Part shown: piece by piece, positions 2,691-59,508 of the stretch
Layout of the letters: every line of letters begins with the position of its first letter
How positions within the stretch are numbered: position 1 is the first letter of the stretch
DNA from: Adineta ricciae
Taxonomy: Eukaryota > Rotifera > Eurotatoria > Adinetida > Adinetidae
Assembly (NCBI GenBank): GCA_905250025.1
Contig: CAJNOJ010000087.1
Location: 1-64,000 of the forward strand
Direction of reading: 5' to 3'
DNA: 64,000 nucleotides
Position numbers and translations under genes: made by a program
Notes under the pieces: model-generated
Told to the model about the DNA's origin: nothing
Database searches by the model: none
Seen by the model: only the letters and a program-made list of their open reading frames with translations

Positions 2691-3554
2691 ATGTGGACAC
2701 ATCTATGTTGTATTCTAATCGCGTTCATTCTTTTTTGGACACAAGAATTTAGTTATGCAAAATGGTCAATTGATAAGTTTTCATCTTCAAAATCAAACCA
2801 TCGACAAGCGGAAGAGCATTTATGCATATTCGATTGTGAATTTACTATACCTTTCGATGCTCCTATGCTCATACCGACAAATTGCCGACAGGAGTCAACA
2901 ACAAACGCGTGTGAAATTGATGTTAAAATAGAACTTAGCTTAAATTACACGGTATTTACTTTCCCACAAAACACCATCAGTTTAATCATCAACGAAGAAC
3001 CTATTGATAGCTACTCAATAGATCTAGTCGATTTCTATTTTGCTGAAAAGTTAATTGCATATTCGCTGGCATACAAATGCTCCTATGGTGATCAATGTGA
3101 ATGGAATTATGTTCAAAATAAACTTCAAGGTATAATCAATCAAGATTATCAAACATTGTTTGATTCTTTATCACCATTGATTTATAATGATAAACCTGAA
3201 TCGAATGTCACCCACTGTTACTCGCTCGATGAACCAGTTGACTGTCAAAGTGGCGTTTGCGACTTTACACAAGCACTCGACACTGAAACGTTCCAGCTAG
3301 TGAATATTCGAGAATGTCTAATTTTCAGCGAACCAAAAATTATCTTCGGTCAGTATCGAATTTCACCCGATCCAGTAAATTTCACACACGATTATTTATA
3401 TTTTGCATGTAACATCAATGAATGTAATAGTCATGCAAATGAACTTACCGTCAAAGATTTGATCAAATTTACCTATCAAAGTTCGGTTGCGACAATGTAT
3501 AAACACTATGTATATCCTATTTTAACTTTCTATTTCATTCTATCGTGTCTGTAA
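2691..3554 (+). CDS. Secreted, probably GPI-anchored Cys-containing protein
   Basis: Intronless frame of 287 aa starting at the ATG at 2691. The frame extends 24 nt further upstream but has no other ATG there. Residues 1-22 are a clear signal peptide (MWTHLCCILIAFILFW...). The body is hydrophilic, has many cysteines (for example DCEF, TNCRQ, CSYGDQCEW, DCQSGVCDF, ACNINECNSH) and several N-glycosylation sequons (NYT, NVT, NFT). The protein ends in a short hydrophobic segment (YPILTFYFILSCL) with nothing after it, which is typical of a GPI-attachment signal. I recognise no family. AATAAA follows the stop at 3557-3562. It converges on the huntingtin gene. The likely place is the outer cell surface; function is unknown. 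Confidence 0.7.
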   Translation: MWTHLCCILIAFILFWTQEFSYAKWSIDKFSSSKSNHRQAEEHLCIFDCEFTIPFDAPMLIPTNCRQESTTNACEIDVKIELSLNYTVFTFPQNTISLIINEEPIDSYSIDLVDFYFAEKLIAYSLAYKCSYGDQCEWNYVQNKLQGIINQDYQTLFDSLSPLIYNDKPESNVTHCYSLDEPVDCQSGVCDFTQALDTETFQLVNIRECLIFSEPKIIFGQYRISPDPVNFTHDYLYFACNINECNSHANELTVKDLIKFTYQSSVATMYKHYVYPILTFYFILSCL

Positions 3555-15200: not shown

Positions 15201-15546
15201 GAAATTTACAATGCAATGCAATGCAAGTCAATGGTTTGAACATTGCGCCATTCTTCTGTTTGTCAGTCAGTTTTAATCAGATATTTTATTTCAAAGAATT
15301 ATTTACCACCGGAAAAGAAATGATTGATCGGACTGTCGAAAATACAAATCAAGATATCAGTGATGCGATCGTCATTGTTCATACTCTTTGTTCGTTCTGT
15401 CGATGTCTGTGTACATTTAACATAGACGAGATATACTGGATAATTGTACATTTTAAACATTTCTTTCTGTACACTAGATGTTAGTGTTATATAAATAATT
15501 GTGATCGTAAAATCAATTTCATAGGCATTTCTAAACGTTTGAAGAA
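15201..15546. other. Divergent promoter region
   Basis: This lies between the minus-strand galectin-like gene and the plus-strand PGD-CC gene. A TATA box for the latter is listed separately. Overlapping open frames on both strands near 15221-15556 are low-complexity and are judged non-coding. Confidence 0.5.
15488..15497 (+). promoter_or_regulatory. TATA box of PGD-CC gene 1
   Basis: TATATAAATA lies about 50-60 nt upstream of the ATG at 15547, a spacing that fits a TATA-driven start with a short leader. The neighbouring paralogue has an equivalent TATATAAA at almost the same distance from its ATG. Confidence 0.6.
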
Positions 15547-16195
15547 ATGACTTCAATCCTTCTTTACTCCACTTTCCTCGCTATTATTGTGTTAAGTAAG
15601 TTTTTCATGAACCATAATCAAACAACATTAATATTCATTTACGTAGATTTTGTCCAAGCAACCTATCCTGGTGATGGATGCTGCGTTACGTGGAGTAGCG
15701 ATGGCACTTGCTGCATGAATGCCTACTTTCAATGCTGTGTAGACGCTGTTCCCGATGTCAGCTATTATTCAACTAACTACTATTATGGTGGAGGCGGCTA
15801 TTACCCTGTTGGCGGATGGGGACGAGTAAGTCATCCTATGTGTCGTTATTTTATGAACGATATGAAACTATTGTTTTATCGATATAAACACGGCGTTTTC
15901 TGTTTAGAGTTGGGGTGGTGGTTGGAACCATGACGGTGGTTGGTATCGTGGTGGCGGTTGGAACCGTGGCAATGGTTGGCATCGTGGTGGTGGCTGGAAC
16001 CATGGCGGTGGTTTTCACCGAGGGGGTGGCGGTTTTCACCGAGGGGGTGGCGGTTTTCACCGAGGAGGCGGCGGTTTTCACCGAGGGGGTGGCGGTTTTC
16101 ATCGAGGAGGCGGCGGTTTTCATCGAGGAGGCGGCGGTTTTCACAGAGGAGGCGGCGGTTTCCATCATGGAGGTGGTAGACGTCATGGTCGTTAA
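15547..16195 (+). CDS. Secreted PGD-CC protein 1 with Gly/His/Phe repeats
   Basis: Three exons (15547-15595, 15647-15825, 15908-16195) join in phase to 171 aa. Exon 1 codes only a signal peptide (MTSILLYSTFLAIIVL...). The mature protein opens with PGDGCC-x8-CC-x6-CC (residues ~25-47), then a Tyr/Gly-rich link, then a tail of Gly-Trp-Asn/His motifs and eight 7-residue GGFHRGG-type units (21-nt unit, 16007-16174), ending RRHGR. The glycine-, histidine- and aromatic-rich tail suggests a structural, adhesive or metal-binding extracellular role; that is inference. AATAAA follows at 16269-16274. The next gene downstream has the same signal-peptide exon length (49 nt), the same phase-1 first intron and the same cysteine spacing, so the two are tandem paralogues. 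I do not recognise the family. Long open frames on the opposite strand and in other frames are by-products of the repeat. Confidence 0.82.
16007..16174 (+). repeat. 8 x 21-nt tandem repeat (GGFHRGG)
   Basis: Eight consecutive in-frame 21-nt units code Gly-Gly-Phe-His-Arg-Gly-Gly. The last unit varies (FHHGG) and the seventh uses AGA in place of CGA for Arg. Differences are mostly synonymous CAC/CAT, GGG/GGA and GGT/GGC changes. Confidence 0.9.
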
Positions 16196-16820
16196 CAGAC
16201 GTTCAACATTCATATGTTTATAATCTCTTTAAAATTCTAATGCAAACTCAATAGTAATGTTATATTTTAATAAAAATCAACACAATTCTAGATTTTTAAC
16301 TTCATTTAACTAGGCAATTGACTCGCAAAACTTTTCTAATAGTAAACTTGTTTAGTACATAGAGTCTATTTCTGAGTATTCTCGATCGCAACCCTATAAT
16401 GAGATGACTAATTTCGATAGCGTCGATAAAATTTAAGGATTCCAGTTATCACGTTGGCAATCAAGTATACGGCTTTATCATTATATTGGTATGCGTCTCA
16501 AAAGATTCTAGACACCAACAATGATTCACTATGCTACGTTAAACATCATTGATTTTTTCTTCTTTCTTGCTCTCTAGTGAAGAAGAAAACAATTAGTCAG
16601 CGTCGTCTTCGAATTTGAATGTCACTTGTCTAGAACATCTAAATAACAGTATTATCGCGTATACGTCATTGAAAGAATTTGAATAGAATAGAATAGAATG
16701 GAAGATTATGTATTCGACTGACGTGTTTTAAATCAAGTGATTTACACCGGTACACAAATACCTCGATTGTATATTGGTTCTATTGGTGTCGATGCGTCGC
16801 TATTCTTCTTTTCTCAGCAG
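16196..16820. other. Intergenic region between PGD-CC paralogues
   Basis: This holds the poly(A) signal of the upstream gene (16269-16274) and AT-rich sequence, including a short AATAG/AATGG run near 16680-16700. No coding signal is seen. Confidence 0.55.
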
Positions 16821-16828
16821 TATATAAA
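16821..16828 (+). promoter_or_regulatory. TATA box of PGD-CC gene 2
   Basis: TATATAAA lies 60 nt upstream of the ATG at 16888. An AGTCATT/TTCAGTA stretch at about 16856-16873 could hold the initiator. The arrangement matches that of the upstream paralogue. Confidence 0.6.
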
Positions 16829-16887
16829 CCAGTATTATTGCATGAATTTACATATAGTCATTTCTATTCAGTAGTTGTATCAAAGAA

Positions 16888-18420
16888 ATGTCTGAGATGA
16901 CCTTCTGCTTCGTATTTGCATTCATTTTCTTGCCAAGTCTGTATCACAAATTTGTTCATTATATATCTATATGAACACTTATTTCTTTCGCAATTCTACC
17001 AGGTGTTATTTTATCACATTCATTTCCTGGCGATGAGTGTTGTATTCGAAGAAGTATAATACGAGGTTGTTGTGTGGATAGATTTGGCCGCTGCTGTGAT
17101 CCTTATCGTTTTTCAAAATTTCATCCTGCGCCTGGTCATCGTCGCTGGCGTGATGATGACTTATATTTTGATCATCATGGTGAGGTGAGTAGTTCCATGT
17201 CGTACACAAAACTCAGAAGAAAGACCTTTCTATCACATACATGCAAATTCTTATAATACTTCATAATATGCAACGATGTACAATTTTTTAGGGTGGTCGA
17301 CACCGATTTGGTCCAGATCGTGATACACCGGTAAAGCAATGCCAACTATTATATCCCAATGATAATAAAATCTCTCATCGTATAGAATCGCAACTTCTTT
17401 CCGCATGATCAATCCTCATCTCATGCATCAGAAGATAATCAAGAAGGTATTGAACGGGGTGAAGACCAAGGTACTGGGCAAGGTGGCCGTAAAGGTGTTG
17501 GACGAACCGACGGTCAAGGTACTGGAAGAGGTGATCGTAAAGGTGTTGGACGGGATGAAGACCAAAGCACTGGAAGAGATGATCGTCAGGGTGTTGGACG
17601 AACCGACGGTCAAAGTACTGGAAGAGATAATCGTAAAGGTGTTGGACGGGATGAAGACCAAAGTACTGGGCAAAGTGATCGTCAAGGTGTTGGACGAACC
17701 GACGGTCAAGGTACTGGACAAGGTGGTCGTAAAGGCGTTGGACGAACCGACGGTCAAGGTACTGGAAGAGATAATCGTAAAGGTGTTGGACGGGATGAAG
17801 ACCAAAGCACTGGAAGAGATGATCGTCAAGGTGTTGGACGAACCGACGGTCAAGGTACTGGTAGAGATAATCGTAAAGGTGTTGGACGGGATGAAGACCA
17901 AAGCACTGGAAGAGATGATCGTCAAGGTGTTGGACGAACCGACGGTCAAGGTACTGGAAGAAATAATCGTAAAGGTGTTGGACGGGATGAAGACCAAAGT
18001 ACTGGACAAAGTGATCGTCAAGGTGTTGGACGAACCGACGGTCAAAGTACTGGAAGAGGTGATCGTCAAGGTATTGAACGGGGTGAAGACCAAAGCACTG
18101 GAAGAGATGATCGTCAGGGTGTTGGACGAACCGACGGTCAAGGTACTGGAAGAGATAATCGTAAAGGTGTTGGACGGGATGAAGACCAAAGTACTGGACA
18201 AAGTGATCGTCAAGGTGTTGGACGAACCGACGGTCAAAGTACTGGAAGAGGTGATCGTCAAGGTATTGAACGGGGTGAAGACCAAAGCACTGGAAGAGAT
18301 GATCGTCAGGGTGTTGGACGAAGTGAAAACCAAGGTATTGGACGAGGTGTAGGTAAGATACTGGGAAAAGGCGTGGACAAGGTACTAACTAATCTTGAAA
18401 CAATAATCACTGTAATATGA
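16888..18420 (+). CDS. Secreted PGD-CC protein 2 with 16-aa hydrophilic repeats
   Basis: Four exons join in phase: 16888-16936, 17003-17184, 17292-17330 and 17386-18420, giving 434 aa. Exon 1 is a 49-nt signal-peptide exon (MSEMTFCFVFAFIFLP). Exon 2 carries PGDECC-x8-CC-x6-CC, the same cysteine spacing as the upstream paralogue, followed by a His/Asp-rich link. Exon 4 has no ATG in its true frame. It begins NRNFFPHDQSSS and runs through eighteen 16-residue units of the type GVGRTDGQGTGRGDRK, then a divergent unit and a short tail (GKGVDKVLTNLETIITVI). The repeat domain is almost devoid of hydrophobic residues and rich in Gly, Arg, Asp and Gln, so it is probably disordered and extracellular. 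Its composition meets the loose definition of a hydrophilin (high Gly, high hydrophilicity), which would suit a desiccation-tolerant animal, but that is inference. AATAAA lies at 18679-18684. Confidence 0.8.
17446..18309 (+). repeat. 18 x 48-nt tandem repeat (16 aa)
   Basis: Eighteen 48-nt units run without any length change, with a diverged nineteenth unit after them (18310-18357). Two unit types largely alternate (GVGRTDGQ... and GVGRDEDQ...), so a 96-nt higher-order period is visible. Units 12-14 and 16-18 have the same sequence in the same order, pointing to a recent 192-nt duplication. Because 48 is divisible by three and no unit contains a stop in several frames, long frames are open on both strands. 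Only the frame continuous with the upstream signal-peptide exons is taken as real. Confidence 0.92.
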
Positions 18421-18784
18421 TGATGATGATGATGATAGCAATGACGACTAATTAGTATCTGTCTTTTTTTTGTATACAAATTTATCTGATAATTTCTTGA
18501 CAAATATTCTATTAATATATTACATGTATTAACTAACAAAATTTGTGACTACTGCTGCCTGAGGGAGACACTAAAACAATCGTAGCACTATCAAATAAGT
18601 ATCTCTCCGACGATGCAACTGATTTTCATTTCAGTACATGGTTCTTTCCATCTACACATAAAACCAGAGCATTATTTCAATAAAAATTTATTTCGTATTT
18701 TTGTAAAGGATCATTTAACAATCATCTTCACATAAAGTAGACACTTTTAACGAAATCATCACATAGACTAAAACAACTCACTAA
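18421..18784. other. Convergent 3' region with two-way poly(A) signal
   Basis: This spacer lies between PGD-CC gene 2 (+) and a minus-strand orphan. It starts with a (GAT)n run (18419-18437). AATAAA for the plus strand (18679-18684) lies 2 bases from TTTATT, the minus-strand AATAAA (18687-18692), so one AT-rich element could end both transcripts. Confidence 0.5.
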
Positions 18785-19306
18785 TTATTTCTTAGCATAA
18801 TATATAATGATACCGATGGTGCCACCCAGTCCAACCAAAATGACAAGGCCAACACCAACGATGACAACTATTTCAACCATACCTTTACGTGTGCGACGCA
18901 GATGAGCAGCATTCAGTCGATCTTTGCCAAGACTTCTCTTCGTTTGTACGTGATTCTCATTAGATATTAGTGGTAACATATTACCAATCTGTTTGTTATC
19001 CATACTTATTGAATATGAATCTGATAAAGTTAAAATTCGCTCTGATCTAGTCATCAGAATCAATAGCAGATAAATTCTGAATGAGGTTAATATTTTGCAA
19101 TTTTCATCGATCATTGCCAAAACGACACCAATCAAACTTTCACAAAACTTAATAGAACTGAAACTATAATGAATATAAACATTCAACATAGCAACGAAAT
19201 GCTCACCAATATCTATTGCAAACATTTTCGATTCACATAGATGTTGCAGTAATCTTCTTAATACAGCGCAACTACGTATTGCATATGGATCCACCGTTTC
19301 GCGCAT
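18785..19306 (-). CDS. Orphan tail-anchored membrane protein, 5' end uncertain
   Basis: From the ATG at 19306 the frame gives 173 aa. The first ~95 residues look helical and contain conserved-looking Cys/Leu patterns (RSCAVLRRLLQHLCESKMFAI; FCESLIGVVLAMIDENC). A polar basic stretch (RTRKG) then precedes a strongly hydrophobic Gly/Val/Ile helix (~146-168), and the protein ends IIYYAKK, a dilysine-like C-terminus. This fits a tail-anchored or type I membrane protein, perhaps of the ER. The frame continues upstream of the ATG to about 19340, so a further exon may exist. I recognise no family. Confidence 0.45.
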   Translation of the reverse strand: MRETVDPYAIRSCAVLRRLLQHLCESKMFAIDIGEHFVAMLNVYIHYSFSSIKFCESLIGVVLAMIDENCKILTSFRIYLLLILMTRSERILTLSDSYSISMDNKQIGNMLPLISNENHVQTKRSLGKDRLNAAHLRRTRKGMVEIVVIVGVGLVILVGLGGTIGIIIYYAKK

Positions 19307-21008
19307 GATCAACAAGGCCACTATGGCAATGGTACAATTTAATTTTCATCTTATATTAGTTCAAGAAGTCATAGATATTCTCACGTTGATCAGATGTGTT
19401 AATAGAGAAAGAAAAGCTGTATAAATCAGTAGTATATTAACTTCTTTTTATATGAAAGGACTAGCGCAATTAAAGTTAATTTTGTTTTATAACACATAGC
19501 TTGACCTTAGCTGTAATTGATCGTAGAAGATGACTTTAGAGTTGAGAGAAAATGAAAATTAGCCCTTTGTAGTGTTAAACTTTTCTGATGAGTTTCTTCG
19601 AAATAAATAGAAACTTTTTTCATAAATATATCACTCAGCAAATACGGAAGTTCAAAACTTCGTAGCGTGCTCTCTTATGAATGGAATGAAAATAGCTTTT
19701 TTCTATTATTTCCAAGTATCAGAAATGACAACAAAAGTATCTACTCAGGTTATGATGATGTCTGTGAAAGATCAACTATCCTTTAAGTTAAACGAAGATT
19801 GATTTTTTTATTGTTAATCAGATGAGACTACTTTGAAAGTGAAAAAGTCTGAATCAATGTTGAGTATTAAAAGCGATTACGAGCGAGTACTCTTGAAATT
19901 TTCGAACGTCTGAGATTGTTTTTCGTTGAATAGAGATTACTGATAACTCATTCTTACGCTTTGAAATCGAACAAGAAAGCAAATATTTGTCATTTAATCA
20001 ATCAAAGCACAAAACATGCATGACTATGCTTCGATCGAATTTTTTTCGTTCAACATTTGTTTTTCCCTTTATCAACAACGGCAATCATTCCGATAATACA
20101 AATAACGCCTTAAGGTTCAATGTTCTGCAATGAGATGAATGCAGCTGCCAGTGCACATTCGATTTTGTTTCATGATCGATATCTTTCTAATAGAACTTCA
20201 TTTTCATTGTCCACGTTTGTCTAGCGTAAAAACGACTTAAAAACAAATCTCGACTTATAAGCGAATTGGATGCTCGACAGAGACAGTTAAGCTGATTTTG
20301 TTACATAATTTGCAATTATACGAGAAGAATAAGTTAATAATAGTATCAAGTCAGGGGTTATACTTTCTAATTTCCAACGCAGACACTGTTGGACATGTCA
20401 AATAAATGAATAATGTTTAATTCGAACAATGATGTTTGTCCTTCAAGAGAAAAATTGATTGAAGTGCCACTCCCATTGTCGACTGAAAGGTTGTCTACCG
20501 CGCGGTGTTGATGACATTGCCATCGTTCATCGCATTCATTCATTCTTTCTTTTTTCAACACACTCAAGTCATGCTGATGCTGATGGCTTTTCCGCCGAAT
20601 GAACATGCATTTATTTAATGACCTCCTGATCGCAACGACACATTGACAGCGCGCAGTGCAACACTTTTTCTTCTCCCTCTCCTTGTGTATATAGTAGCAA
20701 GAAAAAAAGGAAACAATAGGTTGACAATGTCGACTTACATGTTAATGATTACTACCTCCTATTGATTGATCTCATCTTAAAAAAACTTTTATGGTTGCTT
20801 GTCATTATAATCTAGTGATTAAAAATGTTCAAGTGCTCGTTCATCTCGGTGTGTGTGTGTGTGTGTTGTTTTTTTGTCTAATGAATTCTTTTTCCACATA
20901 GCGTGACCGCTAGTAGGCATGTAGATGTATACCTCAAATGATGGACATGTCATCAAGATTGGGAAGGTGGAGAAGATAAAACTGTCATATAATCATTTGA
21001 ATTTTCTA
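19307..21008. other. Intergenic, no gene recognised
   Basis: About 1.7 kb of AT-rich sequence. It contains a (GT)n run near 20850-20865. A 79-codon minus-strand frame at 20367-20606 has no domain, signal peptide or splice partner. Nothing else is supported. Confidence 0.5.
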
Positions 21009-22124: not shown

Positions 22125-23015
22125 GAAGTTTTTTTATGTGATCACTGAACATATGAATACGAAATGATTTTTTGAGATTAAACATTTGATCGCGTATGTT
22201 CGATTTGTTTTTGTTTGATTTTACGGTAAAAAGCAAGAGACAAGAAGCATTTCACATCAAAGATCAATGATGAACACGCGTCTGAACGGAGATTAACGCT
22301 TCATCTCGATGTATACATATATGTGTGTATAAGCAAGCGTAGCGGTCTTCTTTCGTTTGAAGATATTCAATTGATTCTGTCAGGAGTAGGTGTGATTGAC
22401 GACCTTGACGATGAGAGACACAACAGACACGCTGTCTGGTCTGATGTTGACGTTTGCTAAGTCACGTCGGTAGTGTCCCATGAGTCTAATTTGCTTTGAG
22501 AATTCCGTTTTGTTCAATGAGGCAAATCTAAACAAACCTTCTCTCCTTCTTGTCAACACTGATCAGAAGTATGGATGAGAGAGAAAGTGCAATATAAAAC
22601 ATTGAGTGAGAGAGAGAGAGGGGGAGTTAGAAAGAAAAGAATAAGAAATGGCACCTTTCTCTCTCTCTCTTCTCTATTCTTTCTCGTTTTCTGTGTCTTA
22701 GATGGGAGAACAANNNNNNNNNNNNNNNNNNNNNNNNNNNNNNNNNNNNNNNNNNNNNNNNNNNNNNNNNNNNNNNNNNNNNNNNNNNNNNNNNNNNNNN
22801 NNNNNNNNNNNNNAAGAAACCTAGTCAAGTGTGTATTTGTATGTGTATATATATATGCATTGGTCAGTCAGGAATCGAATAGATTGCAATTATATGTTTA
22901 TAGTGAGGAAAGAGAAACAGACTCATCTCTCTAGATCGATCCATCTTGACTATTGTCTGTCTAGAGCGTGTCTGACCGAAGTATGACCACTATACTATTG
23001 TTGTCTATTTCAGAA
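22125..23015. other. Intergenic region with assembly gap
   Basis: This lies upstream of the nephrin-type gene on one side and the hypothetical minus-strand gene on the other. It contains (GA)n and (CT)n tracts around 22597-22675 flanking the N run, a likely cause of the assembly break. The sequence just before 23016 (TTGTTGTCTATTTCAG) is a good splice acceptor and may be a 5' UTR intron end or a trans-splice site. Confidence 0.6.
22714..22813. other. Assembly gap, exactly 100 N
   Basis: A run of exactly 100 N is the conventional size for a gap of unknown length. Real sequence may be missing here. Purine/pyrimidine microsatellites flank it. Confidence 0.98.
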
Positions 23016-58446: not shown

Positions 58447-58661
58447 TCCATAGACTAATTGACGATCGTATCAAAAGCAATCGCGATCTCTCTCTCTTTT
58501 TGTCTTGGCTTTTTTTTTGTTCAGTCTGATAATTTCCTCTTCTAGAAATTCTGTATACGCGTGCAATTCTTCTTTCATATTGTAGTTCTTCTTGAATGAA
58601 CGGATTTTCTTAATCTTGCTTATATATAACACATACATATATTTATTATTCTAGATCTATC

Positions 58662-59508
58662 ATGCTCACAAGCGTTGTTCTTCTTGCTTTTACTGTCATT
58701 TGTGTTCAATCACAAACTGCACTTGTTCTTCCACCATTACCCTATGCATATAGTGCACTCGAACCCGTTCTTTCGGAACATTTGATGAGATTACATCATG
58801 ATAAACATTTCGACACATATACAAAGAAGACCAATGAAGCATTGAAAACAATTATGGTTGATACCTCAGCTAACGAGCAATTGAAAGAATTAGCCAAGAA
58901 ACCACTCGAAGAAATCCTCCATGATGTTTTACATTTACCTGAACAATATCAATTTGCATTGAGACACAATGGCGGTGGTTATTACAATCACAAACTTTTC
59001 TTCTCCATGTTGAAAGCACCAACTGCAACAGCTGCTGAAAACAAACCAACTGGCGCCTTACTCGAAGCCATCGAAAAAAGTTTTGGTTCATTCGATAAAT
59101 TCAGAGAATTGTTCAGTGCAGCATCAGTCAATCTCTTCGGCTCCGGATGGGTCTGGCTTTACATCGATGCTCAAACTCATAAACTTGTTCTCAACTTCAC
59201 AGCCAATCAAGATAACCCGTATGTTGTTGTAATGCAATCAGACGCCTTTGAACAAATTCCTTTCCATTTAGAATCATGTTCGACAAAAACCATGTTGTTC
59301 TTTTGGGTATTGATGTTTGGGAACATGGTTCGTAGTGAAATATTCAAAAACTTCATCTGGAAAATGTGCTTTTCTTTTCTCTTTAGCATACTACCCTGTT
59401 TATGAAAACCGTCGTAGTGAATATATTGATAACTTCTGGCGTATTGTTAACTGGCCTTTCGTTGCTCAACTCTACACCGAAGGTACAACCAAACGTGCTG
59501 ATCTTTAA
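58662..59508 (+). CDS. Secreted manganese superoxide dismutase, bacterial type
   Basis: Three exons (58662-59218, 59272-59327, 59387-59508) join in phase to 244 aa. It converts superoxide to hydrogen peroxide and oxygen. A clear signal peptide (MLTSVVLLAFTVICVQS) replaces the usual mitochondrial presequence. All four metal ligands are present: His45 (LHHDKH), His110 (NHKLFF), Asp200 and His204 (GIDVWEHAYY). Tyr53 and Gln183 (ANQD) are also in place. A Gly four residues before His110 and the Gln in NQD indicate the Mn rather than the Fe form. Several stretches resemble bacterial MnSOD more than animal SOD2: LPPLPYAYSALEP, FGSGWVWL, ENRRSEYIDNFWRIVNW. Introns and signal peptide show that it is a working eukaryotic gene. 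It was possibly acquired by lateral transfer, which is common in bdelloids. TATA-like TATATATAA lies about 40 nt upstream. Confidence 0.9.

Follow-up and report, generated by a model that had tools for sequence, protein, structure and literature searches.

A small family of genes with a shared six-cysteine head and differing repeat tails in the rotifer Adineta ricciae

Do two neighbouring genes that place the same pattern of paired cysteines ahead of quite different repeats belong to one family, and if so what kind of protein might they encode? The question is raised by a stretch of 64,000 nucleotides from Adineta ricciae (C87:1-64000, the whole of which we call the window), where gene A and gene B each follow a hydrophobic first exon with a PGDxCC-x8-CC-x6-CC segment, here termed the head, and end in a low-complexity tail. 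Searches of the genome (130.5 Mb in 1033 contigs) revealed one further copy, A', on contig C268. Comparison of the three sequences supports A, A' and B as paralogues with a conserved head, A and B having the look of old duplicates, and we regard as about evenly poised the fuller proposal that they encode small secreted, lineage-restricted structural proteins.

Three genes on one plan

In all three genes exon 1 is 49 nt long, intron 1 lies in phase 1 and intron 2 in phase 0. The first-pass annotation of this locus had pointed to a common 49-nt first exon followed by a phase-1 intron, and both are confirmed in A and B, the exon length of 49 nt placing intron 1 in phase 1 in each; the phase of intron 2 is added here. 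Its description of two heads with identical cysteine spacing also holds, since exact CC-x8-CC-x6-CC heads lie at 15679 and 17038. These are the sole matches in the window, across six frames, to a looser CC...CC...CC pattern, and 50 mononucleotide shuffles of the window (in which dinucleotides are not kept) gave no match. The TATA box that had been placed about 60 nt before the ATG was found as TATATAAA at -59 in A and -67 in B.

The promoters extend the likeness beyond the coding exons. A [CT]ATTTCTA element lies exactly 38 nt from the TATA box in each of the three genes, a fixed spacing that supports common descent. Of 40 promoter columns outside the TATA box, 17 carry the same base in A, A' and B, where shuffling B gives a mean of 8.3 (equally good in 1 of 5000 shuffles); A and B by themselves agree in 20 of 40, where shuffles average 12.5 (equally good in 24 of 5000). 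A search of the genome with A' recovered both A (E 1.4e-26) and B (E 3.7e-4); with B as query, A' was recovered at E 0.006 and A at E 0.06. The conserved-head family that had been proposed from A and B is thus supported by a copy elsewhere in the genome and by the promoter spacing.

Several observations weigh against this kinship, and in particular against that of B. The heads of A and B agree at 10 of 24 residues, nine of them being PGD and the six cysteines (A' and B agree at 11 of 24), a longer query of B exon 2 finds only B itself in the genome at E values up to 10, and the three-way promoter shuffle holds the related A and A' fixed. In the prokaryote and viral collections, 44 and 36 stretches fit the pattern, but no relative of the head was confirmed among them and tblastn recovered 0. 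Given a head identity so largely made up of motif residues, it is the motif, the gene structure and the promoter taken together that carry the relationship between A and B.

Genes A and A' are closely matched. Exons 1 and 2 agree without gaps at 54 of 76 residues, and dN (0.16) is below dS (0.61; NG86), as expected under purifying selection in this short sample of 76 codons. Over the 120 nt upstream of the ATG there are 79 identities, where 200 shuffles gave a mean of 65 and a maximum of 75. The product of A (171 residues; introns of 51 and 82 nt) consists of the hydrophobic leader, the head, a Tyr/Gly linker and a Gly/His/Trp/Phe tail in which the 7-residue unit GGFHRGG occurs 7 times, its mature chain being 39% Gly with 13 His and many Trp, Phe and Tyr residues, while that of A' (125 residues) carries five GGWHHGG units and a Gly/His/aromatic tail of the same class. 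We consider A well supported as a gene with a constrained copy. The Ks of 0.61 over these codons falls between the published A. ricciae means given for homologues (0.135) and ohnologues (1.267) in PMC5916493. No homeologous block was seen: over C268:20000-39999 and 164 kb of C87, the match is confined to the gene itself, from 5' flank to 3' flank, and to 37% matches of another open frame at C87 65.6-67.0 kb.

How large is the family? A DNA-level scan of the genome for PGDxCC gave 8 places, compared with 6 for the pattern reversed as a control. Three of the 8, A, A' and B, carry the CC-x8-CC-x6-CC head; the other five show no head in an unspliced open frame, in a scan that misses members lacking PGD or having an intron inside the head. 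Protein searches of the genome returned A and A' at an E cut-off of 0.001, and A, A' and B alone at a cut-off of 10. A large family was thus not found in this genome, where the two approaches detected three members, and the expected multitude of paralogues, alike in head and differing in tail, is not seen here. What does exist is a small family with a head unmatched in Pfam or the PDB. The coordinates of its features are given in Table 1.

Table 1. Features of genes A and B in the window and of copy A' on contig C268
Feature	Position	Strand	Remarks
Gene A	15547-16195	+	three exons, stop included
TATA box of gene A	15488..15495	+	TATATAAA, 59 nt before ATG; also -59 in A'
[CT]ATTTCTA element of gene A	15526..15533	+	exactly 38 nt from TATA box, spacing common to A, A' and B
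Gene A exon 1	15547..15595	+	49 nt, hydrophobic leader; A' exon 1 also 49 nt
Gene A exon 2	15647..15825	+	179 nt; PGDGCC-x8-CC-x6-CC head and Tyr/Gly linker; A' exon 2 also 179 nt
Gene A exon 3, with stop	15908..16195	+	Gly/His/Trp/Phe repeat tail; A' tail of same class
AATAAA 3' of gene A	16269..16274	+	
Gene B	16888-18420	+	four exons as inferred
TATA box of gene B	16821..16828	+	TATATAAA, 67 nt before ATG
[CT]ATTTCTA element of gene B	16859..16866	+	38 nt from TATA box
Gene B exon 1	16888..16936	+	49 nt; followed by unusual donor GTCTGT
Gene B exon 2	17003..17184	+	182 nt; PGDECC-x8-CC-x6-CC head and His/Arg/Asp linker
Gene B exon 3, inferred	17292..17330	+	39 nt; required in this model for head to join repeat frame
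Gene B exon 4, inferred, with stop	17386..18420	+	hydrophilic 8-residue repeat tail with 16- and 32-residue higher-order units
AATAAA 3' of gene B	18679..18684	+	
A'	C268 29827 down to 29303	minus	exons of 49, 179 and 150 nt; introns of 65 and 82 nt

Gene B, its repeat array and its surroundings

Introns 1 and 2 of gene B measure 66 and 107 nt, with phases as in A. The exon that starts at 17292 reaches an in-frame TGA at 17406-17408 unless a further intron is removed, and 134 GT...AG pairs were listed that restore a long open frame. The best candidate is 17331-17385 (55 nt, CCG/GTAAAG...TATAG/A, giving 434 residues), which stands out because its length lies inside the 48-57 nt range of granulin introns and its donor begins with GTA. 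The yardstick consists of 11 granulin intron options of this genome, all of 48-57 nt and with GTA donors, after 2 further options (each 248 nt, with donors GTG and GTT) had been dropped. We infer that head and tail of gene B are joined through this ordinary-looking intron; the first-pass annotation had overlooked it. The head reported there for B is present, and it is connected to the tail only if these 55 nt are spliced out. Overall, B is probably a gene, with the splice to the tail uncertain.

The tails were correctly described as Gly/His/Phe 7-mers in A and Gly/Arg/Asp/Gln 16-mers in B, with the qualification that an 8-residue repeat underlies the units of B. Tandem Repeats Finder gives periods of 24, 48 and 96 nt, and 36 octads follow in one register with Gly at one position in 34 of them. 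At the DNA level 17460-18346 is a minisatellite of 48-nt period, in which a higher-order unit of 96 nt can be discerned (self-match of 85% at 96 versus 75% at 48). As inferred, the mature chain of B would hold 76 Lys and Arg against 74 Asp and Glu, and the 344 residues of the last exon would include 2 aromatic ones.

Could B instead be a decaying or short gene, with a protein of about 115 residues that is cut off by the TGA at 17406, followed by an array that is an untranslated minisatellite? Without the third intron the frame does stop there, and the donor of intron 1 (GTCTGT) is atypical beside the GTA donors of the 11 granulin options, which also tells against the full-length model. So does the array itself, in which two forward and two reverse frames are open and the synonymous share picks out none of them (forward 0.33 in the frame originally read, 0.33 and 0.20; reverse 0.30, 0.21 and 0.35), so that a clear frame preference is missing. 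On the other side stand the intact head, the open frame of 344 codons and the 55-nt intron, whose GTAAAG donor joins the frames at a length within the range of the granulin options kept. We judge a short or decaying B to be unlikely, if not negligibly so, and translation of the array in the frame originally read to be plausible.

Database matches of so periodic a sequence call for caution. The 344-codon frame matches Gp5_trimer_C at 36.5 bits (cut-off 30.9), and we rejected a phage gp5 needle repeat: a 128-residue piece scores 21.2 bits, below the cut-off, the same piece reversed matches no family, and four of five within-octad permutations, those compared with the families, give weak sub-cut-off matches to other families only (E 0.015 to 8.7). 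Cornifin (42.2 bits) and DUF1829 (31.0 bits) are matched above cut-off by the second open forward frame of the array, and since at most one of the two forward frames can code, above-cut-off family matches of the array are no evidence. A composite query of the B tail had strong genome matches only at its own locus, with five weak ones on C147 and C304 (E 0.03 to 3.5). The corresponding search with the A tail found only A; this negative means little because the known tail of A' was missed, making the search blind to low-complexity relatives.

The window has a G+C content of 35.9%, and the value published for A. ricciae is 35.6% (PMC5916493). Five of the ten long open frames scanned match animal-type families, namely huntingtin C-terminal HEAT, Ig, fibronectin III, RhoGEF/PH and Fe/Mn superoxide dismutase. 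Within the window neither Rfam, at gathering thresholds, nor a tRNA scan gave a match, and 100 N at 22714-22813 mark an assembly gap. Convergent with gene B is an open frame on the minus strand (18788-19345) that has a hydrophobic stretch near its C-terminus and no Pfam match at E 0.001. The superoxide dismutase frame (58614-59402) begins with MLTSVVLLAFTVICVQSQ..., an N-terminus resembling a secretion leader, which suggests an extracellular enzyme of the Fe/Mn type.

The six-cysteine head and the granulins

The proposal that the head belongs to no described family stands as far as Pfam and the PDB are concerned. Against Pfam the head has no match, the sole one listed (VMA21, E 0.06) falling on the leader, and against PDB sequences only E values of 2.4 to 9.3 were obtained. 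An AlphaFold2 model of the head has a mean predicted local distance difference test score (pLDDT) of 52, with 19 of 59 residues at 70-90, all within residues 10-31 and forming short strands; Foldseek found 0 matches to PDB folds with this weak model. The cysteine spacing taken alone, however, is that of the central part of the granulin framework. Six single-frame granulin copies of this genome were compared (out of 38 matches, the rest being omitted mainly as intron-split or near-identical), and in 5 of them Cys III-VIII are spaced CC-x8-CC-x6-CC.

Is the head, then, a shortened granulin that keeps Cys III-VIII and folds as a mini-granulin hairpin ladder, with the tails added late? The spacing and the short strands of the AlphaFold2 model are consistent with this, granulins are secreted, as A, A' and B probably are, truncated six-Cys granulins are described as able to fold (PMC7463432), and on C551 there is a weak granulin fragment with the pattern CC-x8-CC-x6-CC-x-D, which A and A' have as well. 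Beyond the spacing the comparison is far less favourable. None of the three heads matches the Pfam granulin family (PF00396) at E values up to 10, and Foldseek returned no PDB fold. Against a profile of the six granulins the head scores 18.2 (probability 22.7%), whereas controls in which all residues but the cysteines were shuffled have a median of 16.9 and a 95% point of 25.1, and controls with other spacings a median of 12.7 and a 95% point of 18.3 (n=100 each). As 18.2 is about what the first controls score and falls just short of the 95% point of the second, the likeness is one of cysteine spacing only and is borderline even there. The mature part contains six cysteines, all in the three CC pairs and none before the first, in place of the 12 cysteines of a granulin or the first six of a half-module; according to the accounts in PMC4527844 and PMC7463432, natural half-modules keep Cys I-VI, not III-VIII. 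In the pairing given by PMC7463432 and PMC11035057, only a single native bond, IV-VII, has both its cysteines in the head. Unlike granulin, paragranulin and mini-granulin, moreover, the heads are without Cys I-II or IX-XII, show no residue similarity past the cysteines and no exon split inside the head, and are followed by repeat tails. Granulin membership is accordingly rejected, the spacing matching and the residues not (Pfam, the profile comparison and the two sets of controls), and we consider a derived mini-granulin improbable.

The connectivity described for half-module granulins is I-III, II-V, IV-VI (PMC11035057). By analogy, the six cysteines of the head, numbered in order, could form the same three bonds, the central one then corresponding to the native granulin bond IV-VII. 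Among the granulin copies seen, the arrangement nearest to that of the head is the fragment on C551 (L027, positions 2778-2849, minus strand), which has a single Cys in place of a CC pair after the core in its open frame. Granulin genes of this genome occur in clusters (L007, L010, L011 and neighbours; C274, C303 and C369), with similar pairs about 24 kb apart on C274 and about 22 kb apart on C369.

Likely nature of the products

Secretion of the products is likely from the hydrophobic first exon, whose best 10-residue mean hydropathy is 2.9 in A and 3.1 in B. Silk-like structural proteins are delimited by a signal peptide, the lack of a transmembrane segment and at least 25% Gly in 80 residues, and lineage-specific Gly-rich secreted proteins are described as widespread in animals (PMC4944945). 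The best 80-residue windows contain 54% Gly in A, 44% in A' and, by the inferred splice and frame, 29% in B, all above this cut-off. With the silk-like proteins A, A' and B share this Gly content and, probably, the leader peptide and the lineage-specific occurrence that is frequent in that class; the silk-like proteins nevertheless make up a compositional class, not a homologous family, and the words Rotifera and cysteine are absent from the main text of PMC4944945. In our view the likeliest products are secreted proteins of a matrix, glue or coat that are specific to the lineage and bear a disulphide head.

For such proteins a division of labour can be envisaged. Export from the cell would be the role of the leader exon, the six-cysteine head would form disulphides within or between chains and so anchor or cross-link them, and the repeat tail would determine the material. 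The Gly-rich His/aromatic tail of A and A' might give a tough, possibly metal-binding solid such as a glue, shell, jaw or cuticle, and the polyampholytic, nearly aromatic-free Gly/Arg/Asp/Gln tail of B a hydrated gel. The His-rich jaw proteins of the polychaetes Nereis and Glycera are also Gly-rich. By analogy with the His-metal jaws of marine worms, a tail of the A type would suit a stiff or metal-hardened material; as presented in PMC6477608 these jaws harden through His and metal, and the Gly/His tail of A matches them in its possible working by composition alone.

Two other functions have to be weighed against a structural one. Antimicrobial and immune proteins are also found among Gly-rich secreted proteins, which counts against a structural reading, and the family might serve in defence as do the Gly-rich, RGD-containing and His-rich SpTransformer (Sp185/333) proteins of sea urchins, the tails diversifying to bind microbes. 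The plan is similar, with a leader exon and Gly-rich and His-rich repeats (structure in PMC5491942), and B as inferred contains 3 RGD. The SpTransformer genes, however, are described as a large, tightly clustered family estimated at about 50, where here three genes were found in the genome; the word cysteine is absent from the main text of PMC5491942, leaving the paired-cysteine head without a counterpart in that description; and A and A' show no sign of rapid change, with dN below dS. A role in defence thus seems to us very doubtful. Alternatively, B could be a secreted hydrophilin-like protectant in drying, with A and A' as matrix proteins. Hydrophilins are defined by more than 6% Gly and a hydrophilicity index above 1.0 (PMC11277543), and the inferred mature chain of B, at 23% Gly and an index of 1.65, passes on both counts. 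The definition is compositional and loose, though, A (0.90) and A' (0.63) fall short of the index, and unlike hydrophilins B would be secreted and bear a disulphide head. We think this, too, quite doubtful, and return to small secreted structural proteins as the reading preferred.

How the tails came to differ is a separate matter. Diversification by tail replacement, as originally proposed, is not upheld as a family trait: A and A' have tails of one class, and the idea comes down to the single contrast of B with A and A', in which the linker that runs from the third CC pair to intron 2 differs as well. The B tail may derive by repeat turnover from a shared Gly-rich tail instead of by replacement. 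A bolder scheme would have a fixed bdelloid-specific cassette of promoter, leader and six-cysteine cross-linking head, the last perhaps a register-shifted mini-granulin, ending at the phase-0 intron, with tails exchanged by exon capture to yield secreted materials of differing chemistry; we hold it to be improbable.

Searches of openly licensed papers for rotifer glycine-rich, cysteine-rich, adhesive, eggshell or jaw proteins brought up no described family of this kind. Provided that they are secreted and assembled, A, A' and B would be candidates for structural proteins in the glue, eggshell, jaw or integument of rotifers. The A/B pair, in which two different repeat tails follow one promoter, leader and head, is in addition a compact case where bdelloid orthologues could tell replacement from turnover.

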